Source: Synechococcus sp. SB0662_bin_14 (GTDB lineage: Bacteria; Cyanobacteriota; Cyanobacteriia; PCC-6307; Cyanobiaceae). From it: DNA of 56,192 nucleotides. A program made the position numbers and the translations under genes. The stretch spans positions 1 through 56,192 of the forward strand of contig VXNS01000016.1 of assembly GCA_009840445.1 (NCBI GenBank), given 5' to 3'. Positions 39,534 to 46,528 of the stretch are shown here, piece by piece. The stretch's first letter is position 1, and every line of letters begins with the position of its first letter. The notes under the pieces are model-generated. The model worked only from the letters and a program-made list of their open reading frames with translations, was not told where the DNA came from and did not search any database.

Positions 39534-39581
39534 TAGCATCTGTCCCCAGGTCGTCGCGTTCGCCCGCCAGGAAGGAACCCA

Positions 39582-40081
39582 TGCTTCACAGTCTTCTGCA
39601 GTCTCTGGACACCATCCATCCATTCCCACGGGCTGAAGCCCATTGCGACATTCCGTGCAAAATCTACGATCCTTCCACGGCCCTGATCGCAGCCCTGTCG
39701 GTCGTGCGCCTGATGGACATCATGAAAGAGAAGTCCGAAGGGGGTGCCATGGCCTCCCTGGAGACCCGCAACAATCTTGCCCGCTGCGTCATGCGCAAGG
39801 AAGAGGAAGCGGAGAAGGTGAAGCACGAGGTCCGAATCATCTGGGGTGACTACTTCAAGGCGCCCCAGTTTGAGGCGTTCCCGGATGCCGGCAGCCTGGT
39901 TCACAAGATCATGCTGCTGGGTGGCGCCTGCAAGCAAGGCGTCAACCGCGCTGACGGGGAAGCACTGGTGGACGCAGTGAACCAGTTCGCCGAGATGTTC
40001 TGGGCCACAAAGGGCATCAAGACCACCAGGAAAACCTGCCCCTACCCACCCAGCCTTGAGGTGGTCTATCCGGTGCTTTGA
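39582..40081 (+). CDS. sodN: Nickel superoxide dismutase
   Basis: NiSOD precursor, 165-166 residues, converting superoxide to peroxide and oxygen. A 20-residue propeptide ends in RAEA, and the mature protein begins HCDIPCKIYDP, the nickel hook whose His1, Cys2 and Cys6 ligate Ni. Many homologues read HCDLPCGVYDP, so IPCKI is a mild variant. The rest is a four-helix protein (about 146 residues) of normal length. The sodX maturation protease overlaps its stop by 4 bases, so propeptide removal and synthesis are coupled. NiSOD is typical of marine picocyanobacteria living on little iron. Confidence 0.95.
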
Positions 40082-40512
40082 TCCGGCTGTTTCAAGGGAT
40101 TGGCGCCCTGCTGGGCTTCGGGATCGTTCGCGTGTCCGGGCTCAGCATGGCTCCAGCCCTGGAGGACGGGGATTTCGTCCTGTTTCGGCGGTTGTCGGCA
40201 GATGACGGTCCTTCCCCCGGATTAATCGTCGTCGTCCGTCATCGGCGGCTGGGCACCATCATCAAACTACTGGGGAAGGAAACCGCTCCAGGACAGTTCA
40301 GGCTGCACGGACTTTCGGCGTTATCCACGGATAGCCGTCACATGGGGAACACGGCACGGCAAGAAATTATCGGCCAGGCCGTCCTGCGCATAGGGGCCAA
40401 TGGCATGTCCAGGCTGAGGCCACCGGAGCGGTGGAGTCCGGGATCAGGTCTGCGCCTTGTTGGTCTGGATGTAAAGAATGACGAGAAACAGGGCCGGCAC
40501 CAGGACGAATAA
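40078..40512 (+). CDS. sodX: NiSOD maturation protease (SodX, S26 family)
   Basis: Signal-peptidase-like serine protease of 144 residues that cuts the SodN propeptide so the new N-terminal His can bind nickel. The Ser box is [10 protein letters not shown] and the Lys box is TIIKLLGKE, with the later STDSRHMG motif of S26 peptidases. No strong membrane anchor is seen. The start is TTG 40078 overlapping the sodN stop. The last 23 codons run antisense over psbM; the family domain ends earlier, so this tail is probably free to vary. Confidence 0.92.
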
Positions 40513-41390: not shown

Positions 41391-42953
41391 ATGGGATTGC
41401 CCTGGTATCGGGTGCATACGGTTGTTATCAACGACCCGGGGCGGCTGTTAGCCGTCCATATCATGCACACCGCTCTCGTCGCCGGCTGGGCGGGCTCGAT
41501 GGCCCTGTACGAACTGGCGGTCTTTGATCCGTCTGATCCGGTCCTGAACCCCATGTGGCGTCAGGGCATGTTTGTTTTGCCCTTCATGTCCCGTCTTGGC
41601 GTGACAGGAAGCTGGAGTGGCTGGGACGTCACCGGCGCTACGGGTGTGGACCCCGGCTTCTGGAGTTTTGAAGGCGTGGCCACGGCCCACATCGTGTTTA
41701 GCGGCTTGATGTTCCTGGCCGCTATCTGGCACTGGACCTTCTGGGACCTGGAGATCTGGTACGACCCCAGAACCGGTGAACCAGCCCTTGATCTACCCAA
41801 AATTTTCGGCATCCACCTGCTCCTGGCCGGGCTGGGCTGCTTTTCCTTTGGCGCCTTCCACCTGACCGGTGTTTTTGGTCCGGGCATGTGGGTTTCCGAT
41901 CCCTACGGGCTCACTGGACACGTGGAGCCTGTGCAGCCGGATTGGGGTCCTGGCGGATTTAACCCCTTCAATCCCGGCGGCATCGTTGCCCACCATATTG
42001 CTGCAGGAATCGTTGGCATCATCGCCGGTATCTTCCATATCACCAGCCGTCCCCCGCAACGCCTCTACCGGGCTCTGCGCATGGGCAACATCGAGACGGT
42101 GCTGTCCAGCGCCATCGCCGCTGTGTTCTTTGCCGCCTTTGTGGTGGCCGGCACCATGTGGTACGGCAGCGCCGCCAACCCCGTTGAGTTGTTTGGCCCC
42201 AGTCGGTACCAGTGGGACCAGAACTACTTCCAGCAGGAGATCAGCCGCAGGGTGGAGGCGGCAGAAGCCGGCGGGGCAACCCAGGAAGAAGCCTGGTCCG
42301 CCATTCCCGAGAAGCTTGCCTTCTATGACTACGTGGGCAACAGCCCCGCCAAAGGCGGCCTCTTCCGCGTAGGCCCCATGGTCAACGGGGACGGCCTGCC
42401 CACAAGCTGGTTGGGGCATCCGGTCTTTACCGACGGCGAAGGTCGGGAGTTGTCCGTGCGGCGCCTGCCCAACTTCTTCGAGAACTTCCCGGTGGTTCTC
42501 GAGGATGGCGACGGCGTGGTTCGGGCCGACATTCCCTTCCGCCGGGCCGAGGCGCGCTATTCCTTCGAGCAGACCGGCGTGACGGCCAGCGTCTACGGCG
42601 GTGAGCTCAACGGGCAAACCGTCACCGATCCTGCCGAGGTGAGGAAATTGGCGCGGGCAGCCCAGTTGGGCGAGCCCTTCGCGTTCGATCTGGAGCGTTA
42701 CCACTCCGACGGCACCTTCCACAGTTCCACCCGAGGCTGGTTCACTTTTGGCCATGCCTGCTTCGCCCTGCTCTTCTTCTTCGGCCACATCTGGCACGGG
42801 GCCCGCACCCTCTATCGGGACGTGTTTGCCGGCATTGATCCCGATCTGGGGGATCAGGTGGAATTTGGTCTGTTCCGCAAGCTTGGTGACGAATCCACAC
42901 GCCGCCTTCCCACAACGGCGGCTGCGTCCCAAGCTGGAACACCCATTCGCTGA
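41391..42953 (+). CDS. psbB: Photosystem II CP47 chlorophyll protein
   Basis: Core antenna of PSII with six membrane helices binding about 16 chlorophylls; 520 residues. It begins [20 protein letters not shown], and the His-containing helices ([45 protein letters not shown]) are all present. The large lumenal loop E (about 260-450) and the C-terminal helix [20 protein letters not shown] follow. The C-terminus is about a dozen residues longer than in plants. psbT follows 16 bases later and both likely end at the hairpin at 43107-43135. Confidence 0.98.
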
Positions 42954-42969: not shown

Positions 42970-43065
42970 ATGGAATCCCTCTCCTACATCCTCATTCTCT
43001 TCCTGGCCCTCTCCACTCTTTTCTTTGCCATTGTCTTCCGGGACCCTCCCAAAATTGGCAAATGA
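42970..43065 (+). CDS. psbT: Photosystem II protein T
   Basis: A 31-residue single-span PSII subunit at the dimer interface, beginning [19 protein letters not shown] and ending DPPKIGK. It lies directly after psbB and shares its transcript. Confidence 0.96.
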
Positions 43066-43106
43066 GTGAACTGCTGACGGCAGCAGCCTGTATCAGCAAC
43101 CTTGTC

Positions 43107-43135
43107 AGGCCCCGCCGTTTTGGTTGGGGCCTTTC
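43107..43135 (+). terminator. Intrinsic terminator of psbB-psbT
   Basis: Stem AGGCCCC/GGGGCCT (43107-43113 with 43126-43132), a 12-base loop, then a short T-run, 42 bases after the psbT stop. The 7-bp GC-rich stem is the best terminator hairpin seen in the window. Confidence 0.75.
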
Positions 43136-43274
43136 ATATGGTTGCTTTTGCGTTCAAACCCTTCAACAATCACGGCCATAAGCGGCTAAGCTCGTGAGTC
43201 TCCCGTGGCGGTGCGGCAGTCGCCAGGGATTTGCACAATTTTCGTCCTGCCCCCGGCAGGCTGCCGCCCAGTCA

Positions 43275-43751
43275 ATGGTTTCCACACCCACTTCCAGTTC
43301 CGACACGTCCAGCCCTGACGACCGCATACGGAACGGCGCCTCATCCGCCGACCATCCTCCAGCCGACACCCTGAATCTTGCCGAGGAAGCAACAGTAGAA
43401 CCTGACGAGATCGATGGCGCTCCCCTTGACGAGGAAGAAAAAGGCAACGACGTCGTTGTGGCCGCTGAAGAGAGACCCCAGTCCAGAGGAGGCAGTAGAG
43501 ATCTGGATGACGTGGGCTTCACGATGGAGGAGTTCACGGCGCTGCTGAGCCAATACGACTACCACTTCAACCCCGGCGACGTGGTGAGTGGCACCATCTT
43601 TAACCTGGAGCCCAAGGGAAGCCTGATTGATATTGGCGCCAAAACCGCCGCGTTCATGCCTCTCCAGGAAGCTTCCATCAACCGGGTGGAAGACTTGGCG
43701 GACGTGCTCCAGCCGGGGGACGTGCGGGAGTTCTTCATTCTTTCGGAGTAA
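43275..43751 (+). CDS. rpsA: 30S ribosomal protein S1, N-terminal part (ended by in-frame TAA)
   Basis: First 158 residues of a cyanobacterial S1. An unusually long acidic N-terminus (1-85, rich in Asp/Glu/Ser) is followed by GFTMEEFTALLSQYDYHFNPGD and the first S1 OB-fold (GSLIDIGAKTAAFMP). The frame ends at TAA 43749-43751 after FFILSE, where homologues continue with EENEDGQL; here TAA is followed in the same frame by NEDGQL. A single G-to-T change (GAA to TAA) explains it. The start ATG 43275 is chosen because the upstream codons are not protein-like. The product would hold one of three S1 domains. Confidence 0.85.
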   Translation: MVSTPTSSSDTSSPDDRIRNGASSADHPPADTLNLAEEATVEPDEIDGAPLDEEEKGNDVVVAAEERPQSRGGSRDLDDVGFTMEEFTALLSQYDYHFNPGDVVSGTIFNLEPKGSLIDIGAKTAAFMPLQEASINRVEDLADVLQPGDVREFFILSE

Positions 43752-43766
43752 AACGAAGACGGCCAG

Positions 43767-44429
43767 TTGATGCTGTCCATCCGCCGGATTGAGTACCAGA
43801 TGGCCTGGGAACGGGTCCGGCAGTTGCAAAAGGAAGACGCCACCATCTACAGCGACGTGTTCGCCACCAACCGCGGTGGCGCACTGGTGCGGGTGGAGGG
43901 TCTGCGGGGCTTCATCCCCGGCAGCCACATCAGCACCCGCAAGCCCAAGGAGGAGTTGGTGGACGAGGTGCTTCCCCTCAAATTTCTTGAGGTGGACGAG
44001 GAACGCAACCGCCTGGTCCTCAGCCACCGCCGCGCCCTGGTGGAGCGCAAGATGAATCGCCTGGAAGTGGGTGAAGTGGTTGTGGGCAACGTGCGTGGCA
44101 TTAAGCCCTACGGCGCCTTTATTGATATCGGTGGCGTCAGCGGCCTGCTGCACATCTCCGAGATCAGCCATGAGCACATTGAGACGTCCCACGCCGTCCT
44201 CAACGTGGGGGACCAATTGAAGGTCATGATCATTGACCTGGATGCGGAGCGGGGACGCATTTCCCTCTCCACCAAAGCGCTGGAGCCGGAACCGGGCGAC
44301 ATGCTGACCGATCCCCAGAAAGTGTTTGACCGGGCTGAGGAAATGGCGGCGCTCTACAAGCAGATGCTGGAAGAGCAGGTGGAAGGGGAACCTGTGCAGA
44401 TGGGCGTCGAGACCGCTTACAAGAGTTAG
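43767..44429 (+). CDS. rpsA: 30S ribosomal protein S1, C-terminal part
   Basis: Continuation of S1 in the same frame as the N-terminal part, 15 bases after its stop. The 220 residues from ATG 43767 (MLSIRRIEYQMAWERV) contain the second S1 domain (IYSDVFATNRGGALVRVEGLRGFIPGSHI) and the third (VVVGNVRGIKPYGAFIDIGGVSGLLHISEI), and end in a helical tail. It could be translated by restart at ATG 43767 or an upstream TTG, giving a two-part S1, or the pair may be one gene with an error or readthrough. Marine picocyanobacteria carry another S1-like gene, which may lower the pressure on this one. Confidence 0.85.
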   Translation: MMLSIRRIEYQMAWERVRQLQKEDATIYSDVFATNRGGALVRVEGLRGFIPGSHISTRKPKEELVDEVLPLKFLEVDEERNRLVLSHRRALVERKMNRLEVGEVVVGNVRGIKPYGAFIDIGGVSGLLHISEISHEHIETSHAVLNVGDQLKVMIIDLDAERGRISLSTKALEPEPGDMLTDPQKVFDRAEEMAALYKQMLEEQVEGEPVQMGVETAYKS

Positions 44430-44452
44430 ACAGCACTGGAGCACCTTGCCCC

Positions 44453-45226
44453 ATGGTCTGGCTGCAGATTGGTCCCCAGCGCTTCGGCCCGCTGCGGGCC
44501 ATTCTTTTTGACAAGGACGGCACCCTCTCCAACAGCGAAGCCTTTCTCATGGCTCTGGCCCAGGCGCGGCTTGCCACGGCTCTGGAGCAGGTTCCTGTGG
44601 GCCTGCGTCCCCGGCTTGCGGGTCTGCTGCAGCGGGCCTACGGGTTCTCCCTGGAGCAGGGGACACCGGGCCTGGATCCTGGTGGGGCCACAGCCGTGGC
44701 CAGTGCAAGCCATAACCTCATCAGTACGGCCACCTGCCTGACCCAGGTGGGCCTGAGCTGGAGTGAGGCCTTGGCCAAGGCCCAGACCATCCATGCCCAG
44801 CCTTTGGACGATCACCTCCCCAGAGCACAGCTCACCCCACCATTGCCCGGTGTGCCACCGCTGCTGCGCCGGGCCCAGGCTCTCGGTCTGCCCTGCGGCA
44901 TCGTCAGCGGGGATTGCCGCCAGGGCATTGAGGACTTTCTGCGGCATTGGGACTTGCTCCATGCCGTCCCGGTCTTCCGAGGCTCGGACCAGGCGCCTGC
45001 CAAACCAGCAGCCCAGGCGGCTCTCCATCTTTGCCGTGATCTTGGTGTTGAGCCGCAGCATTGTCTCCTCTGTGGTGATTCGGGCCAGGATCTGGCCATG
45101 GCCCGCGCCGCAGGGGTTGGTGCGGTGGTGGGGTACACCGGCGGCTGGCGGCGCCCACCCCGACTCCATGGCTTTGACACCTTGGTGGCAGACTGGAACA
45201 CCGTGACGCTCATGGCCAGCCCTTAA
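44453..45226 (+). CDS. HAD-family phosphatase
   Basis: A 257-residue haloacid-dehalogenase hydrolase resembling phosphoglycolate phosphatase. The nucleophile motif is ILFDKDGTLSNSE (the second position is Lys, DKDGT), motif II/III has KPAAQAAL, and motif IV is CLLCGDSGQDLAMARAAG. A helical cap (about 30-120) separates motifs I and II. The substrate is unknown. It lies between rpsA and metK on the same strand, 23 bases after rpsA. Confidence 0.88.
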   Translation: MVWLQIGPQRFGPLRAILFDKDGTLSNSEAFLMALAQARLATALEQVPVGLRPRLAGLLQRAYGFSLEQGTPGLDPGGATAVASASHNLISTATCLTQVGLSWSEALAKAQTIHAQPLDDHLPRAQLTPPLPGVPPLLRRAQALGLPCGIVSGDCRQGIEDFLRHWDLLHAVPVFRGSDQAPAKPAAQAALHLCRDLGVEPQHCLLCGDSGQDLAMARAAGVGAVVGYTGGWRRPPRLHGFDTLVADWNTVTLMASP

Positions 45227-45289: not shown

Positions 45290-46528
45290 ATGGCCCGCTA
45301 TGTGTTCACCTCCGAATCGGTCACTGAGGGCCATCCCGACAAGATCTGCGACCAGGTGAGCGACGCTGTGCTTGATGCCCTTCTCAGCGCCGACCCCGAC
45401 AGTCGTGTGGCCTGTGAGACGGTGGTGAACACGGGCCTTTGTCTGGTCACGGGTGAGGTGAGAACCAAGGCTCATGTTGACATCCCCGCCGTTGTGCGGC
45501 GGGTCATTGCCGACATTGGCTACACCGGCGCCCGGGCCGGTGGTTTTGACGCCCACAGTTGTGCCGTGCTGGTGGCCCTGGACCAGCAGTCGCCGGACAT
45601 TGCCCAGGGGGTGGATGAAGCGGTTGACCACGACGGGGATCCCCTGGACCTGGTGGGGGCTGGTGACCAGGGCATCATGTTCGGCTATGCCTGCAACGAA
45701 ACGCCGGAGCTGATGCCCCTGCCCATCAGCCTGGCCCATCGCCTGGCGTTGCAACTGGCCCGTGTTCGCAAAACCGGCACCCTGGACTATCTCCTGCCCG
45801 ACGGCAAAACCCAGGTGAGTGTGGTCTACGACGACGGCCAGCCGGTGGCCATTGACACGATTCTCATCTCCGCCCAGCACACTGCCCAGGTGGCCGGTCT
45901 TCACCAGGCCGAGGCCGTCCGCTGCCACATCCGTGAGGATCTCTGGACCCACGTGGTGGTGCCGGCCACCGCTGATCTCCCCCTCAAGCCGGAGCGCAGC
46001 ACCACCCAGTTCCTGGTGAATCCCACCGGCCAATTCGTGGTGGGGGGACCCCAAGGGGATGCCGGTCTCACGGGCCGCAAGATCATTGTCGATACCTACG
46101 GGGGCTATGCCCGCCACGGGGGCGGCGCCTTCTCCGGCAAAGATCCCACCAAGGTGGACCGCTCCGCCGCCTATGCCGCCCGTTTTGTGGCAAAGGCCAT
46201 CGTTGCGGCGACGTTGGCCAGGCGGGTGGAGGTGCAGCTCAGCTACGCCATTGGCCGTGCCCGTCCCGTGTCCATTCTGGTAGACACCTTTGGCACCGGC
46301 CGGTTGGGCAACGAACAACTTATGGAGCTGGTTCAACAGCACGTTGATCTGCGGCCGGCGGCCATCATTCAGAACTTTGGCCTGTCCACCATCTGCGCCG
46401 AACGGGGCGGTCGCTTTTACCAGGACACCGCCGCCTACGGCCACTTCGGCCGCATGGACCTTCAGGCCCCCTGGGAAGACGTGACCGCCCTGGCCGATAC
46501 CCTGCGGCAGGCGGCCCCGTCCGTCTGA
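45290..46528 (+). CDS. metK: S-adenosylmethionine synthase
   Basis: Makes S-adenosylmethionine from methionine and ATP, supplying the many methyltransferases and radical SAM enzymes of this window. The 412 residues contain [19 protein letters not shown], the methionine-site [12 protein letters not shown], and the phosphate-site [19 protein letters not shown]. Length is normal. Start ATG 45290 ([11 protein letters not shown]). Confidence 0.98.

Follow-up and report, generated by a model that had tools for sequence, protein, structure and literature searches.

The rpsA locus

The window analyzed here is a 56,192-nucleotide stretch of DNA, contig C68 of a genome (G000) from a sponge-dwelling cyanobacterium of the Candidatus Synechococcus spongiarum type. 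The genome is a draft from an uncultured symbiont (2.16 Mb in 85 contigs, rated 99.6% complete). S1-type genes are usually essential. The rpsA frame of the window consists of 158 codons, a TAA, a further 225 sense codons and a terminal TAG at 44427-44429 (Table 1). We confirm that the in-frame stop is a real feature of the frame as assembled. The original prediction had the S1 frame resume for 226 codons and placed an ATG five codons past the stop. The frame does continue, for 225 codons, and the ATG does lie downstream, but six codons separate it from the stop and a TTG precedes it as the first available start.

Table 1. Coordinates of rpsA, its domains and its neighbors in the window.
Feature	Position	Strand	Comment
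psbB (CP47)	41391..42953	+	Upstream neighbor of rpsA
rpsA frame	43275..44429	+	Cyanobacterial-type 30S ribosomal protein S1; three S1 domains, one internal stop; ATG at 43275
S1 domain 1	43566..43784	+	Pfam PF00575 match with one TAA inside, ahead of its last residues
In-frame TAA	43749..43751	+	Codon 159; Glu (GAA/GAG) in homologues read
Downstream open frame	43767..44429	+	Possible restart at TTG 43767 or ATG 43770
S1 domain 2	43830..44030	+	PF00575 match; intact
S1 domain 3	44061..44276	+	PF00575 match; intact
HAD-type hydrolase	44453..45226	+	Downstream neighbor of rpsA
metK	45290..46528	+	Downstream neighbor of rpsA

In addition to the neighbors in Table 1, rpsA is adjoined by psbT, which we named from its sequence and place. 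On the minus strand, a 367-codon open frame (43341-44444) lies antisense to rpsA, and its counterpart in the sister genome has 390 codons. This frame probably reflects the codon bias of GC-rich coding sequence. Elsewhere in the window we observed a cytochrome P450 gene (38016-39533; PF00067) and, at 39581-40512, a nickel superoxide dismutase gene followed directly by an S24/S26-type peptidase gene. The latter two form a usual pair, in which the peptidase serves maturation.

In congeners G001, G003, G004, G007 and G009, the regulator nrdR (TIGR00244) sits a short way upstream of rpsA. It had no match in G000, G005 or G008; in the window, the corresponding gap lies between psbT and rpsA (43065-43275). 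These data suggest that nrdR was lost in a sub-clade.

The stop replaces a conserved glutamate codon

The original prediction that TAA stands in place of a glutamate codon was borne out: the site is Glu, encoded by GAA or GAG, in every homologue where codon 159 could be read. The nearest relative, the sister genome G008, has GAA, one base away from TAA. We also drew 242 genomes of the class, and 237 of these cyanobacterial genomes matched the rpsA frame; among the roughly 155 matches listed, only the symbiont's own rpsA carries an internal stop. Both the Glu in all homologues read and the solitary position of this gene among the listed matches favor an error or a minor allele.

All congeners but one have rpsA, and the symbiont's gene is 90-96% identical to theirs. 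A full-length match that runs through a single stop at this level of identity is not due to chance. The sister genome also shares the gene order psbB-rpsA-HAD-metK, and the frame is thereby orthologous to cyanobacterial rpsA by both sequence and place. None of the listed titles and abstracts from literature searches described a disrupted S1 in this group.

The stop interrupts S1 domain 1

Three PF00575 matches lie in the frame. The first contains the TAA, so that the assembled sequence does not encode the three domains in one uninterrupted chain. Of the 74 positions in the domain model, the N-terminal piece aligns to 2-54 only, and the final residues of S1 domain 1 lie downstream of the stop.

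These results bear on the proposal, raised in the original prediction, that S1 is made in two pieces. Translation would restart 15-18 bases on, at the TTG or ATG, and either the two halves would assemble or the C-terminal half would suffice. A start codon close behind the stop and a downstream frame that is open and constrained (see below) are what such an arrangement would leave. However, the TAA lies within S1 domain 1, and a protein made in two pieces would have this fold cut ahead of its last residues. The candidate starts are also simply the Leu and Met codons of intact S1 in the genus. Split ribosomal proteins are a further point of comparison; here the break is within a domain, not between domains, and the relatives are intact, with no split S1 among those listed. 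A scan for promoter consensus sequences gave no sigma-70-type hit close to the restart. We regard a real stop with S1 made in two pieces as distinctly unlikely.

The sequence after the stop has remained constrained

Relative to G008, the part of rpsA after the stop differs by 28 synonymous codon changes and 1 nonsynonymous change. S1 domain 1 ahead of the stop shows 12 synonymous changes and 1 nonsynonymous. When changes were assigned to branches with the help of the other congeners, the symbiont's own branch carried 16 synonymous changes and 1 nonsynonymous change after the stop. About 52 nonsynonymous changes would be expected, using site counts from the G008 comparison, if this half had drifted neutrally over the whole of that branch. 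The ratio of 28 to 1 indicates that the downstream half has been fully constrained until now, and both this ratio and the scarcity of nonsynonymous change on the own branch fit an error or a minor allele. By our own arithmetic, based on a Poisson upper limit, a stop that was real and disabling would be younger than about a tenth of the own branch.

A related possibility is that the stop is real and recent, that rpsA is dead, and that a paralogue or fragments of S1 carry the load. Contig C46 does encode an intact S1 paralogue with three S1 domains. It is only 34% identical to rpsA, though, and relatives have such a paralogue next to an intact rpsA, indicating that it is not a stand-in gained because of the stop. 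The loss would also have to be very recent, because the post-stop half is almost free of nonsynonymous change. The suggestion in the original prediction that a second S1 copy compensates is weakened, since no second rpsA was found in the assembly and the C46 paralogue is of a kind that accompanies intact rpsA in relatives. On these grounds, a dead rpsA with its function taken over elsewhere appears quite unlikely.

No means of reading through the stop was found

A real stop could also be read through efficiently enough to yield full-length S1. This idea is consistent with the constraint seen both before and after the TAA. In bacteria, RF1 and RF2 both recognize TAA, and the assembly has two release factor genes, both intact. 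We identified 44 tRNA genes in the assembly, including a tRNA-Glu (ttc), and none reads TAA. Separately, a tRNA-Tyr/tRNA-Thr pair occurs twice (C75:25921-26077 and C14:28779-28935). With neither a matching tRNA anticodon among the 44 tRNAs nor loss of a release factor, the genome lacks the features of stop codon reassignment or suppression, and the read-through envisaged in the original prediction has no supporting feature. A single rpsA copy, no tRNA for TAA and a stop that breaks a domain are, in turn, in keeping with an error or a minor allele.

Set against about 1.18 Mb of G008, some 420 kb of the symbiont's genome gave 166 genes and roughly 57,000 codons to compare; the listed stops and frameshifts were inspected by eye, partly from knowledge of the proteins. 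The TAA in rpsA was the only stop deep inside a conserved gene among the 166, which again favors an error or a minor allele. No other internal TAA was found in a conserved gene in this comparison, and TAA is accordingly not in recurrent in-frame use. Taken together with the tRNAs and release factors, this makes read-through highly improbable. Genome-wide breakage was also rejected: in this comparison, the other listed stops and frameshifts fall in antisense frames, at gene ends or in spurious N-terminal extensions, where the predicted start is too far upstream.

We also considered whether the contig is rich in errors. Nonsynonymous and synonymous codon changes on the contig stood at 50:179 for the own branch and 43:156 for the sister. 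These ratios are alike and show no visible excess of errors, which speaks against an error at the stop, although so coarse a test could miss rare single errors.

Discussion

Our analysis indicates that this is an ordinary cyanobacterial rpsA. The TAA most likely stems from a one-base mistake in sequencing or assembly, or else from an allele that belongs to a minor strain or is deleterious and very recent. The living population would most likely carry a sense codon, the TAA having entered the consensus of the draft. We infer that the sense codon would appear in reads or in sister strains. Among the four explanations offered in the original prediction, a base error fits best, as judged from the assembled sequence, but a very recent real mutation would leave the same trace.

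It is unlikely that this symbiotic cyanobacterium really produces S1 in two separate translation products or by reading through the TAA, and there is no sign here of a new biological mechanism. A stop that was both real and fixed would make this a strongly constrained S1 gene that persists despite a nonsense codon, with implications for how far S1 domain 1 can be dispensed with. As it stands, the case mainly shows that one base of a draft genome can resemble biology.

The closest known counterpart is the cyanobacterial 30S ribosomal protein S1 family (NCBIfam NF005639; PRK07400.1). When read through, the symbiont's frame has the same three S1 domains in the same order, and its two pieces match positions 6-89 and 98-307 of the 318-position model. 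The intact sister protein likewise matches chloroplast S1 (PDB 5x8p) over residues 74-367. What sets the symbiont's rpsA apart from cyanobacterial and chloroplast S1 is the single in-frame TAA of domain 1. In draft genomes from metagenomes, genes can be interrupted by sequencing errors and minor alleles, and the stop resembles such cases in being an isolated single-base change in an otherwise constrained, single-copy gene.
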